DNA of 27,630 nt from a virus. A program made the translations under genes and the position numbers. Below the pieces are notes generated by a model. The model made no database searches. It was not told where the DNA came from and worked only from the letters and a program-made list of their open reading frames with translations. Shown piece after piece: positions 8,687-23,472 of the stretch; the first letter of the stretch is position 1; each line of letters starts with the position of its first letter. The stretch is taken from positions 6,853 through 34,482 of IMG/VR virus record IMGVR_UViG_3300016486_000019; one strand, written 5' to 3'.

Positions 8687-9376
8687 ATGAGTTATATTGG
8701 AAAAAGTCCTGCAAACGTAGCATTAGCAGCTAGTGATATTGCAGATGGTGCAATAACTACAGCAAAAATAGCTGCAGATGCAGTAACAGATGCTAAGATA
8801 GCAGATGATGTAGTTGGAACAGAACATTTAACTGCTAATGAAGTAGACACAACTGCTCTTGGGGCAGATGCTGTTACAGGTGCACAACTTGCAGATAATG
8901 CTGTAAATTCAGAACACTACACAGATGCTAGTATTGATTTAGCTCACATGAGTATTAACTCTATAGATAGTGATCAGTATGTAGATGGTAGTATTGATAC
9001 AGCACACATAGCTGATGCACAAATTAACGAAGCTAAAATGTTAATTTCTAACGCACCAACAAATGGATATTTTTTATCAGCACAATCTGGCAATACTGGT
9101 GGAATGACTTGGGTTGAAGTACCAGCAGCAGACTTTAGTGCAGTTGGAGAACATCTTTTACCAAGTACAGATGATACTTATGATTTAGGAAGTGCAACTA
9201 AACAATGGTCTAACATTTATACTGGAGATTTGCATTTATCTAATGAATCTAAATCGACAGGTAACTCTGTTGATGGCACAAACGGAAATTGGACTATTCA
9301 AGAGGGTAATGACGATCTATTCATTCTTAATAATAAATCAGGCAAGAAATACAAGTTTAAACTAGAGGAGATTTAA
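8687..9376 (+). CDS. Repeat-containing tail fibre protein
   Basis: Residues about 17-117 consist of imperfect ten-residue repeats built on D-A-(V/I)-x-x-x-x-I-A-D (for example DGAITTAKIA, DAVTDAKIAD, DNAVNSEHYT, DGSIDTAHIA), a slender fibre-shaft pattern widespread in marine phages. Residues about 150-229 carry a separate end domain: LLPSTDDTYDLGSATKQWSN then NWTIQEGNDDLFILNN and a Lys-rich terminus. The D-L-G-S-x-x-x-x-W motif is shared by many fibre tips. GAGGAG inside the last codons provides the ribosome site for the next gene. It probably forms a shaft displaying a receptor-binding end. Confidence 0.65.
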   Translation: MSYIGKSPANVALAASDIADGAITTAKIAADAVTDAKIADDVVGTEHLTANEVDTTALGADAVTGAQLADNAVNSEHYTDASIDLAHMSINSIDSDQYVDGSIDTAHIADAQINEAKMLISNAPTNGYFLSAQSGNTGGMTWVEVPAADFSAVGEHLLPSTDDTYDLGSATKQWSNIYTGDLHLSNESKSTGNSVDGTNGNWTIQEGNDDLFILNNKSGKKYKFKLEEI

Positions 9377-9378
9377 GC

Positions 9379-10002
9379 ATGGCAATAATCTCTAATGCAA
9401 CAACGATTGCAGATGCTGGTGCATTTTCAGTTAGTTTAGGTTCAATGGTTCACATTAAAACTTTAACTGCTAGTAGTTCAGCTACATTAAGTTTTGTTGA
9501 TGGTACAGCAGATGTTGTATTAGATGATACTTATCCTATTTATGTTTTTAAATTTATTAATATTCACCCAGCAACTAATGGAACAACATTTCAATTTAAT
9601 ATGAGTATAGATAGTGGAAGTAATTATAATGTAACAAAAACAACAACTGCATTTAGACCATTTCATTACGAAAGTGATAGTACACCAGAGTTAGCTTACG
9701 AATCATATGAAGATTTAGCACAATCAACAGCTTTCCAAACTATTGTTACAAATTTAGGTAATGCTGATGATGAAAATTCAGGTGGAAGTATGACTTTATT
9801 CAATCCATCTTCAACTACATTTGTAAAACATTTTATATCTAGCACTAATATGTGTCATAGCAGTGCTTACCCAGCAAGTGTAAATTGGCATATAGCTGGG
9901 TATGGAAACACAACAAGTGCTGTAGATGCAATAAGATTTCAAATGTTATCAGGAAACATAGACGCTGGTCAAATTAAACTCTACGGAATAAAGGATAATT
10001 AA
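9379..10002 (+). CDS. Adhesin-like virion protein, paralogue A
   Basis: This 207-residue protein is the first of three tandem paralogues. Shared blocks are TLSFVDGT (36-43), VVLDDTY (46-52), DSGSNYNV.KTTT (78-90), LFNP.STTFVKHFI (140-153), AGYGNTTSAV (173-182) and SGNID.G.I.LYGI (191-204). Segments 91-112 and 155-172 differ between copies. The sequence looks all-beta, with no enzyme motif. Its place after the fibre genes suggests receptor-binding tips or fibre decorations. The ribosome site GAGGAG lies in the end of the preceding gene. Function is inferred. Confidence 0.6.
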   Translation: MAIISNATTIADAGAFSVSLGSMVHIKTLTASSSATLSFVDGTADVVLDDTYPIYVFKFINIHPATNGTTFQFNMSIDSGSNYNVTKTTTAFRPFHYESDSTPELAYESYEDLAQSTAFQTIVTNLGNADDENSGGSMTLFNPSSTTFVKHFISSTNMCHSSAYPASVNWHIAGYGNTTSAVDAIRFQMLSGNIDAGQIKLYGIKDN

Positions 10003-10005
10003 ATC

Positions 10006-10632
10006 ATGGCAGTAATATCAAACGGAACAACTTTAATAGACAATGGTATTTTAGATGCAGCAATACCAACTGGTAAAATGACTTTAATTAAAACCTTAAC
10101 TGCTTCAAGTTCATCAACCTTATCATTTGTAGATGGTACATCTGATGTAGTTCTTGATGACACCTATGATGAGTATGTATTTACTTTTAATAATATTCAC
10201 CCAGAAACTGATGCAGTACAATTTGAATTTAATTTAAGCACAGATTCTGGAAGTAACTACAATGTTGCTAAAACAACTACAGCATTTAGAGCTGGTCAAT
10301 ATGAAAATAACAGTGGTTCTTTTTTTGCTTATTTGACTGGTGCAGATTTAGCACAAGGAACAGGATTTCAACGTTTAGAAGAAGGTGACTCTATGGGTAA
10401 TGACAACGACCAATGTTTAGGTGGAACTTTAACATTATTTAATCCAGCTTCAACTACGTTTGTTAAACATTTTATTGCAAGAACTAATAATGCACATTGG
10501 GTTGATGTTAGCACAGATGGTTTTTTTGCTGGGTACGGAAACACAACAAGTGCAGTAAATGCTATTCAATTTAAAATGTCATCAGGCAACATAGATAGTG
10601 GAGTAATAAAATTATATGGGATTGGGGGATAG
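10006..10632 (+). CDS. Adhesin-like virion protein, paralogue B
   Basis: The second of the three paralogues (208 residues) begins MAVISNGTTLIDNG, three bases after the stop of copy A, with AAGGAT as ribosome site. It keeps all the shared blocks (TLSFVDGT, VVLDDTY, DSGSNYNV, LFNPASTTFVKHFI, AGYGNTTSAV, SGNIDSG). It differs most between FRAGQYENNSGSFF and GNDNDQC, and again around TNNAHWVDVSTDG. The pattern of fixed framework with variable loops fits duplicated receptor-binding proteins exploring different surface targets. Alternatively all three could assemble into one hetero-oligomer. Confidence 0.6.
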   Translation: MAVISNGTTLIDNGILDAAIPTGKMTLIKTLTASSSSTLSFVDGTSDVVLDDTYDEYVFTFNNIHPETDAVQFEFNLSTDSGSNYNVAKTTTAFRAGQYENNSGSFFAYLTGADLAQGTGFQRLEEGDSMGNDNDQCLGGTLTLFNPASTTFVKHFIARTNNAHWVDVSTDGFFAGYGNTTSAVNAIQFKMSSGNIDSGVIKLYGIGG

Positions 10633-10686
10633 ATGGCTTTTAATAAATTAAAAGAAATTCACAAAGGAGATTATTCATGGCTTTAA
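10633..10686 (+). pseudogene. 17-codon ORF, possible remnant of a fibre gene start
   Basis: An ATG directly after the stop of paralogue B opens a 17-residue frame, MAFNKLKEIHKGDYSWL, that ends inside the start of paralogue C. The opening MAFNKLK resembles N-termini I have seen on marine phage virion proteins. It also carries the ribosome site (AAAGGAGA) for paralogue C. It may be the leftover 5' end of a gene deleted when the paralogues were rearranged, or simply a leader peptide. Confidence 0.3.
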
Positions 10687-11294
10687 TTAGTAATGGTTCA
10701 ACAATATTTGATAATGGAAGTATGGCTTCTGGTTTTGGTGGAAGTATGACATTTATTAAAAAGCTAACAGCTTCTGGTTCTGCTACTTTATCTTTTGTAG
10801 ATGGTACGGATGGAGTGGTGTTAGATGATACTTATAAAGAGTATGTATTTACATTTAAGAATATTCACCCAAGTGCAACAGGTGAATTAAATTTTCAGTT
10901 TAATTTAAGTTCAGATAGTGGAAGTAATTATAATGTAACAAAAACAACAACTTTTTTTAAAGCACAACATAATGAAGCTGACAATATTGCTGATATGGAA
11001 TATGTACCGTCTAAAGATTTAGCACAAGGCACAGGATTTCAAGGACTTTCTATGGATTTGGGTTATGGTAATGATGAATGTTTAAGTGGTTCTTTAACAT
11101 TATTTAATCCAAGTTCTACAACTTTTGTTAAGCACTTTATATCAAGAACAACTCATTATATGAATAGTAGTAGAGCAATTGATATTAATATTGCTGGTTA
11201 TGGAAATACAACAAGTGCAGTAGACGCAATAAGATTTAAAATAGACTCTGGCAATATAGATGCTGGAGATATTTGCCTATATGGTATTGCTTAA
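10677..11294 (+). CDS. Adhesin-like virion protein, paralogue C
   Basis: The third paralogue (205 residues) starts MALISNGSTIFDNG behind a strong AAAGGAGATT ribosome site. It retains TLSFVDGT, VVLDDTY, NIHP, DSGSNYNVTKTTT, LAQGTGFQ, LFNPSSTTFVKHFI, AGYGNTTSAV and SGNIDAG. Its variable segments (KAQHNEADNIADMEY and TTHYMNSSRAIDIN) differ from both other copies. LAQGTGFQ and the VFTFxNIHP block are closer to copy B than to A, hinting that B and C separated most recently. The gene ends at a short direct repeat (11286-11323). Confidence 0.6.
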   Translation: MALISNGSTIFDNGSMASGFGGSMTFIKKLTASGSATLSFVDGTDGVVLDDTYKEYVFTFKNIHPSATGELNFQFNLSSDSGSNYNVTKTTTFFKAQHNEADNIADMEYVPSKDLAQGTGFQGLSMDLGYGNDECLSGSLTLFNPSSTTFVKHFISRTTHYMNSSRAIDINIAGYGNTTSAVDAIRFKIDSGNIDAGDICLYGIA

Positions 11295-11346: not shown

Positions 11347-11634
11347 ATGACAAGACATCATAATATAAACGGAAACATAGTACCTTTTACTGCTGAAGAA
11401 GAAGCAGCAAGAGATACTGAAGAAGCAACTTTTGCAAGTGGTGCGTTCGATAGAGCAATGGCAGATTTAAGACAAAAAAGAAATAGTTTATTAGCTGCTA
11501 CAGATTATTTAGCTTTATCAGATAATACTTTAAGTGCAGGTATGAGTGCATACAGAACTGCATTAAGAGATCTACCAGATGGTAAAGATACAGTTGCAAA
11601 GTGTGAAAACGCTACGTTTCCAACTAAACCTTAA
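11347..11634 (+). CDS. Probable tail fibre assembly chaperone
   Basis: The 95-residue protein has a charged N-terminus (FTAEEEAARDTEEATF), then a helical segment LRQKRNSLLAATDYLAL (about 41-57), the motif YRTALRDLPDG (about 68-78) and an end FPTKP. The R-x-x-L-L-A-x-x-D...Y-R-x-A-L-R-D-(L/I)-P...F-P-x-x-P arrangement is typical of small phage tail assembly chaperones (Pfam Phage_tail_APC-like). Such proteins help fold or attach distal tail parts. It follows the fibre and adhesin genes directly, as expected. Ribosome site AAAGGAAA; the stop overlaps the next ATG (TAATG). Confidence 0.7.
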   Translation: MTRHHNINGNIVPFTAEEEAARDTEEATFASGAFDRAMADLRQKRNSLLAATDYLALSDNTLSAGMSAYRTALRDLPDGKDTVAKCENATFPTKP

Positions 11635-22370: not shown

Positions 22371-22819
22371 TGCAGCTTAGTGGTCATTTTAGTTTAAGAG
22401 AATTAACACAATCTCAAACAGCATTACGTAAAGGTATAGACAATAAACCTACACAAGATCATATAGAAAATTTAACTGAGTTAGCAGTACAGATACTAGA
22501 ACCTACACGTAGGAATTTTGGTAAACCTATAGCAATCTCCAGTGGATATCGTAGTGAGGAATTATGTGAAGCAATAGGTAGCAAAACTACATCACAGCAT
22601 GCACAAGGAGAAGCGGCAGACTTTGAATGTTTTGGAGTCGACAATAAAGAATTGGCAAAGTACATTAAGAATAACCTAGTGTTTGATCAACTTATACTAG
22701 AATTTTATAATCCAGATGACCCCTCAAGTGGATGGGTGCATTGCTCATATAGTAAAGAAGAAAATAGAAAACAATCATTATTATATAACGGAAAGGATTA
22801 TACAGAATGGCTTACTTAA
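22370..22819 (+). CDS. Endolysin, M15-type peptidase
   Basis: This 149-residue protein matches peptidase family M15_3 (D-Ala-D-Ala carboxypeptidase / L-Ala-D-Glu endopeptidase type). Key features are LSGHFSLRELTQSQTA at the start, SSGYRS (57-62), SQHAQGEAADF (75-85, zinc ligands His77 and Asp84), a catalytic-acid candidate Glu111 in LILEFY, and GWVHCSY with ligand His124. Length is normal for a single-domain enzyme, and no signal peptide is present, so export would need a holin. It would cleave peptide cross-bridges of Gram-negative peptidoglycan at the end of infection. It sits downstream of the holin candidate and membrane proteins, completing the lysis cassette. Confidence 0.85.
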   Translation: MQLSGHFSLRELTQSQTALRKGIDNKPTQDHIENLTELAVQILEPTRRNFGKPIAISSGYRSEELCEAIGSKTTSQHAQGEAADFECFGVDNKELAKYIKNNLVFDQLILEFYNPDDPSSGWVHCSYSKEENRKQSLLYNGKDYTEWLT

Positions 22820-23472
22820 ACGCAAATATACCTGTAATAGAATGTTATGTTAGGGGTAATTTTTTAAGAGATCAAAAAGATTCACACGACAAATACTTTG
22901 AGGTTGGTGTATTTGGATTTAGTTCTATACCAAACAGAGTACCTATGTTTCATTTCTTAATGGAAGATGGTGGGCTATGGTGGAGAGCACCTATATCAGC
23001 TTTCTGTTCTAAGCCTGGAGTAAAAGAATTACCATTAGATGAGTTAGTAATGTGGGATAGTTTTAGTTATAATGTAAGTGTTACAACTTTTTATGAACTA
23101 GCTGGTGCTACTATGCAATACACATCTAGACGTAAAGTAAAACGTAAAGGTAAATACTTATTTACAATAGATTGGTGTGCAGGAGATTTTAATGAATTAA
23201 ATTTTGGTTATGCAGAGAAACCAGATCAACATAAATGTGGTCATGTGATTGCATTAGATGATGGGAACTATGCAATACAGCCAAACAATAGACTTAAAAT
23301 GTTTGATGCATCTATGGGTGTTGACCCAAACAAAAATTTAATTAATAGATTAGTAAGTAGTAAGATATACTCTGTAGAAAATTCATCTAAATGGATTACA
23401 GATGAACATGAGGAAGGAAGCTACGATTATAAAATTAGAAATTTAGAGGAGGAAAACGATGACAGTGAATAA
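22807..23472 (+). CDS. Conserved marine phage protein, unknown function
   Basis: The ATG overlaps the endolysin end by 13 bases. The 221-residue product starts MAYLNANIPVIECYVRGNFL and has aromatic-rich segments (MFHFLMEDGGLWWRAPISAF, LVMWDSFSYNVSVTTFYEL), a basic patch SRRKVKRKGKYLF, then FTIDWCAGD and QHKCGHVIALDDGNYAIQPN, and a very acidic C-terminus. I recognise this combination as a conserved unknown of marine phages. It has no signal peptide and no membrane helix. The sparse Cys/His (WCAGD, HKCGH) might hold a metal but do not form a standard motif. Confidence 0.6.
   Translation: MAYLNANIPVIECYVRGNFLRDQKDSHDKYFEVGVFGFSSIPNRVPMFHFLMEDGGLWWRAPISAFCSKPGVKELPLDELVMWDSFSYNVSVTTFYELAGATMQYTSRRKVKRKGKYLFTIDWCAGDFNELNFGYAEKPDQHKCGHVIALDDGNYAIQPNNRLKMFDASMGVDPNKNLINRLVSSKIYSVENSSKWITDEHEEGSYDYKIRNLEEENDDSE

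Follow-up and report, generated by a model that had tools for sequence, protein, structure and literature searches.

Three adjacent paralogues in a SAR11-type ocean phage as the likely A, B and C chains of one heterotrimeric tail-fibre tip

Receptor-binding tips of the T4 gp37 and T7 gp17 type are homotrimers in which an all-beta tip sits on a stalk, often with the help of an assembly chaperone, and in which a variable distal face is combined with a conserved proximal part. The globular head of vertebrate C1q has pseudo-threefold symmetry and consists of three related chains (A, B and C), each with a surface of its own. Pelagiphages, which infect SAR11, rank with the most abundant viruses known. 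A widely conserved trio of related tail genes stands in consecutive order in Dishui Lake virophage 2 (DSLV2); the three proteins co-purify upon co-expression and are reported to form a 1:1:1 heterotrimer with a receptor-binding end, and proteins of the same position cluster across viruses (PMC12724248).

The window analysed here comprises 27,630 nucleotides (bases 6853-34482 of a 34,482-base virus record), and all coordinates refer to it unless a contig is named. Profile matches of the flanking genes point to a podovirus of the SU10-portal type (PF23899 portal, PF24175 adaptor), and the virus is a SAR11-type ocean phage. It also encodes a protein of 221 aa (22807-23472) that matches phrog_3704, annotated as ferredoxin in the auxiliary metabolic category (E 3.6e-55). 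Three adjacent head-to-tail open reading frames of 207, 208 and 205 aa occupy 9379-11294 on the plus strand. Copy 1 (9379..10002, +; phrog_14820, E 8.6e-88) is a class B subunit with P55 I56 and the C-terminus GIKDN, copy 2 (10006..10632, +; E 4.6e-84) a class A subunit with D55 E56, K202 and the C-terminus GIGG, and copy 3 (10677..11294, +; E 5e-85) a class C subunit with lysine at marker 30, K55 E56 and the C-terminus GDICLYGIA. All three match phrog_14820, whose function is not annotated, across nearly the full profile, and a Pfam search of the three copies returned no family above the cut-off. The copies are joined by direct repeats of 100-275 nt with 70-79% identity; in the protein alignment copies 2 and 3 are 61-62% identical to copy 1 and mean column identity is 75%. 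The sequence-only reading had described adjacent tandem paralogues with shared framework blocks (TLSFVDGT, AGYGNTTSAV and others) and two variable segments, and this description is confirmed: the blocks are present, and the segments are real, lying in copy 1 at about residues 91-111 (9649..9711, +) and 154-172 (9838..9894, +). Their counterparts are residues 93-113 (10282..10344, +) and 158-174 (10477..10527, +) of copy 2 and residues 93-113 (10953..11015, +) and 156-172 (11142..11192, +) of copy 3, as delimited by column entropy and, for copies 1 and 3, by alignment. The three genes most likely give rise to one obligate heterotrimeric tail-fibre tip, each contributing one of its chains A, B and C; to this reading we assign a probability of about 0.78. 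It builds on copy number, classes, layers of constraint, covariation, cassette exchange and module context, all of which were computed directly.

Among phage records the phrog_14820 family was found only in Pelagibacter phages, and many marine viral contigs carry it. HTVC010P (AGE60300-02), HTVC034P (gp35-37) and the T7-like HTVC019P (AGE60622-24) each have three adjacent copies in the same three-gene layout, followed by a small gene at the place of the chaperone; these copies are annotated only as hypothetical protein and stand in the order A-B-C, compared with B-A-C in the window. Scans of viral contigs yielded several hundred loci, and a genome scan added four more, three of which, among them one in a Pelagibacter MAG (L409) and one in a Pelagibacteraceae single-cell genome (L410), hold an intact triplet. 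In the single-cell contig (L410:674-4335), two extra chaperone-like genes lie upstream of the triplet and an ORF downstream of it matches only the first 51 positions. Since the loci were retrieved by similarity to single copies, there was no bias towards threes. After removal of near-duplicates, 125 complete runs remained: 94 triplets, 15 triplets behind a fused copy, one run of six and 15 others, the latter comprising single copies that have longer N-terminal parts fused to them, a short fused hit, the single copy of Lederberg EXVC029P and contig L142. Counting only distinct, complete, free-standing runs, 110 of 112 have three or six intact copies (three in 109, six in one). The two exceptions are the Lederberg copy, which lies beside a protein annotated as C1q-like, and L142, which reads as frameshifted; its triplet (L142:4000-5615) is in short pieces, consistent with assembly frameshifts. 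Runs of two, four or five intact free-standing copies were absent among the complete runs and were seen only at contig ends. Relatives with one invariant copy, the picture that the sequence-only reading had named as contrary to its own, are not what the family shows: free-standing singles are almost absent, Lederberg EXVC029P being the only one, and single copies are otherwise confined almost entirely to the C-terminus of fibre proteins, as a tip on a stalk that matches the gene upstream of copy 1. Two or three triplets per phage were observed in L179 (3494-9841; nine copies), L054, L195, L201 and L033.

Three old classes occur together, one member each, in nearly every triplet. By marker residues, 170 of 194 triplets contain one each of A, B and C, in the order ABC in 131, BAC (the order of the window) in 36 and CBA in 3. 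A mixture clustering that was blind to the arrays (K=5) placed the members in three different clusters for 169 of the 194 triplets, compared with a mean of 64 and a maximum of 81 after shuffling. Most of the approximately 24 triplets that do not sort cleanly by the marker rule come first in phages with six copies; these divergent triplets seem to comprise a separate set of three types. These two procedures replaced iterated whole-protein class HMMs, which drifted (one of each in 98-110 of 137 arrays) because features are mixed in the middle copies of the lineage to which the window belongs. Class-specific residues fall on strands 25-36, 56-66 and 196-206, and about 1 bit of class information is found at positions 27, 30, 55, 56, 60, 62, 200, 202, 207 and 208 (copy-2 numbering), on three strands in the AF2 model or adjacent to them. 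They lie outside the variable segments. Moreover, 409 of 411 copies have a nearer counterpart in another genome than among their sisters, which argues against recent duplication, and an origin of the triplets by concerted evolution or recent duplication was rejected on this basis. From the proposed small adhesin set formed by duplication, the tandem paralogy therefore remains, and the notion of a recent or expandable set has to be given up in view of a copy number fixed at three (or six, or nine) and of three old classes.

Constraint on the proteins was resolved in 118 arrays into three layers (copy-2 numbering): a tag common to the triplet, the class-specific strands and a hypervariable middle. 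Column entropy reaches 3-4 bits at most of positions 93/95/97/99, 104-113 and 159-174, with additional variable stretches at 70-77 and 123-130, and these largely hypervariable residues tell next to nothing about class. Variability at every second residue of 93-99 hints at a single exposed face, and the earlier idea of diversified surface segments is supported. In eight pairs of copies from different classes the hypervariable segments are 81-94% identical at the amino acid level, whereas the surrounding chassis stays at or near the different-class background (median 0.59 vs 0.589). The DNA of these pairs is mostly 70-100% identical from codon ~67 to ~190, as opposed to mostly 28-75% over codons 1-50 and 56-78% over codons 196-208. 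Copy 2 of the window (class A) shares its middle segment with a class C copy of L211 in the same cassette relation. Sharing of the middle across classes at the DNA level indicates that recognition segments are passed between classes without the chassis.

Pooled pairwise dN/dS, for which the choice of pairs favours shared cassettes, was 0.60 in the variable segments and 0.40 and 0.26 elsewhere. The comparison by segment that had been proposed thus ranked the variable segments highest but, with a value below 1, did not demonstrate positive selection on them. The earlier statement that nothing indicates a diversity-generating retroelement was borne out, as no template-like repeat matching the triplet occurs elsewhere in the 34 kb record and no reverse transcriptase was found among the ORFs scanned, which are part of all ORFs. 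A retroelement or rapid hypermutation is also unsupported by the close contig L157, in which the variable segments of copy 2 show no base substitutions relative to the window. In the comparison of this contig, ~97% identical to the window, with 9931-10940, substitutions cluster in the framework blocks 9931-10002, 10077-10125 and 10777-10940, with none across 10126-10520, the stretch of the copy 2 variable segments. In this contig (L157/L209) a single-base deletion relative to the window, around window position 10521, breaks the middle copy near residue 175, which could be a sequencing error or a real frameshift.

Residues 2-14, the N-terminal tag, have a cross-copy identity within arrays of 0.472 compared with 0.314 after shuffling (z 26.9), a signal that rests on few independent changes because the shared tags are of few types. 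Identity within arrays also exceeds that between same-position copies of different arrays (0.429), and in phages with two triplets each triplet bears its own tag. Covariation between the proteins was assessed by corrected mutual information on 170 arrays. The top inter-subunit pair was A56-B60 (z 12.9-14.1), whose raw value of 0.347 was never reached in 60 lineage-keeping shuffles (maximum 0.183). Observed and expected counts were 85 vs 68 for E-K, 19 vs 4.5 for S-E and 3 vs 15.8 for S-K, and we read them as a probable charge pair. The matched-pair Fisher test gave p=4e-5, and the trend recurs in the BAC-order lineage, which includes the window. B56-C60 (z 4.9) and A56-C60 (z 5.7) are raised as well, and the latter leaves A-B-C as no more than the favoured cyclic order. 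Hardly any variation is seen at C56 (E) and A60 (K); they would form a second E-K pair in most arrays, as opposed to E-T in the window. The top 10 inter-subunit pairs all fall in the class-residue strands (0.3 expected), a residue set that was picked from the same sequences by between-class differences and not by within-class covariation. Six of the top 40 are same-position pairs (207-207, 31-31, 39-39 and 24-24; 0.25 expected), as would be expected near a threefold axis.

These data bear on whether the three proteins could instead be separate homotrimeric receptor-binding proteins, each at its own fibre or baseplate position and used for alternative or combined host recognition, which is close to the sequence-only reading. 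Most characterised phage fibre tips are homotrimeric, and in relatives the domain occurs as a single fused tip that is necessarily self-complementary; independent variation of the cassettes would suit this arrangement too. However, covariation inside a single protein would be expected of a homotrimer interface, and A56-A60 has a z of 0.0; the interface-like signal lies between classes. Covariation requires contact and not a trimer, and adjacent homotrimers that touch could give some of it. Still, the strict threes with one member of each class are not accounted for by separate homotrimers, and the tag is common to the triplet rather than class-specific, so that the three proteins seem to dock at one place. 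We therefore consider separate homotrimers unlikely. Of the two words used in the sequence-only reading, "combined" suits the three proteins better than "alternative", as they most likely form one heterotrimeric tip.

The preferred reading of one heterotrimer at a fibre tip also depends on the surroundings of the triplet. A fibre stalk protein of 229 aa (8687..9376, +; phrog_892 tail fiber protein, E 1.4e-32), whose repeat region reaches about residue 118-145, is encoded directly upstream of copy 1, and a tail-fibre assembly chaperone of 95 aa (11347..11634, +; phrog_4912, E 6.5e-16; Pfam PF16778 Phage_tail_APC, E 6.2e-9, above the cut-off) follows copy 3. Behind 135 of 150 triplets there is such a chaperone gene, at a median offset of 29 nt, and the triplet genes themselves nearly overlap, with a median spacing of -1 nt and 89% at no more than 10 nt. 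In L212, L222 and L224 one phrog_14820-type tip domain is fused straight behind a stalk of the window's type, which links the domain to fibre tips, and in L232, L261 and L264 it forms the C-terminus behind related stalks. Taken together, stalk gene, chaperone and fused relatives support the fibre or adhesin context that had been proposed. An apparent further fusion in L411 (4380-4940), titled Roseovarius MAG, was rejected as natural, as the contig appears to be a chimera of bacterial and pelagiphage-like sequence and is no evidence that Roseovarius is a host. Where a fibre protein with its own fused tip lies directly upstream of a triplet, the phage has single-gene and three-gene tips side by side, as in L036, L057, L071, L164 and L189 (15 distinct complete cases in all). 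The AF2 model of copy 2 is all-beta (pLDDT 88.4). Fold matches in BFVD reach a TM of 0.80 and include a few that bear the name tail fiber or Stf side tail fibre, and a PDB search gave no relatives of the family by sequence and none by fold at E <= 0.001. A hetero-oligomer might also sit elsewhere, for example as a heterotrimeric head fibre or as a layer of the tail collar or hub, and the virophage DSLV2 heterotrimers are modelled on capsid capsomers (PMC12724248). The position of the triplet directly between a tail-fibre stalk gene and a tail-fibre assembly chaperone and the relatives fused to fibre stalks make such a location very improbable. As for a repertoire of adhesins grown by tandem duplication, with copies freely gained and lost, the tandem paralogues with variable segments and the phages with six or nine copies are compatible with it, but it is already disfavoured and hardly credible given that complete free-standing intact runs of two, four or five are lacking, that for 409 of 411 copies the closest relative lies in another genome and not among the sisters and that expansions come as whole triplets with their own tags.

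From the computed patterns we infer that the three chains physically form a trimer, that the tag docks and, on the ground of its variability, that the hypervariable face contacts the receptor. Each chain of the proposed tip would consist of a chassis and a cassette. In the chassis, the N-terminal tag common to the triplet would dock to a shared stalk or hub, and the class-specific strands would fit only the neighbouring classes, in the order A, B, C about a pseudo-threefold axis. Residues ~67-190, the cassette, would bear the hypervariable outer face, probably the part in touch with the host surface. Near-overlapping genes would suit synthesis in a 1:1:1 ratio, with assembly probably aided by the chaperone encoded downstream. 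One fibre tip could thus display three different binding faces, because cassettes vary independently and move between classes while the chassis residues stay put. In the multi-triplet phages the divergent triplet has a different N-terminal tag (NYNAIKYD/TYQDSRYN type), which suggests parallel fibre tips in one virion. More broadly, we think it probable that obligate A:B:C tips are built from three chassis with exchangeable cassettes by abundant marine podoviruses whose backbones are of at least two unrelated kinds (HTVC010P type and T7-like HTVC019P), so that one tip equals three independently evolving faces, and that private N-terminal tags separate the parallel heterotrimers in phages with two or three triplets.

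If the heterotrimeric tip is real, three surfaces instead of one define adsorption on each fibre, and a three-gene cluster annotated only as hypothetical would be explained. The split into chassis and cassette would show how recognition surfaces are exchanged without breaking assembly. In the open-licence literature we found no description of the triplet in pelagiphages and none of heterotrimeric tips of three paralogues in tailed phages. Proteomic evidence for the three proteins in virions did not turn up. Tips of the T4 gp37 and T7 gp17 type use one gene for all three chains, whereas here three non-interchangeable genes appear to make one tip. The C1q head is an analogy of working principle, and homology to the phrog_14820 family is not claimed. 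DSLV2 appears to be the nearest precedent, though unrelated, and makes a heterotrimer plausible and limits the novelty. Both systems have exactly three consecutive genes whose same-class proteins group across viruses. On the other hand, DSLV2 is a virophage and the virus of the window a tailed phage, and by domain description the DSLV2 proteins, with a T4 gp37-like collar domain (PF07484), are set apart from the copies of the window, which match no Pfam family. The triplet-specific docking tag, cross-class exchange of cassettes and covariation between subunits were found here and do not appear for DSLV2 in the excerpted text (PMC12724248). Independent appearance in virophages would make heterotrimeric tips a recurring design and not an oddity.
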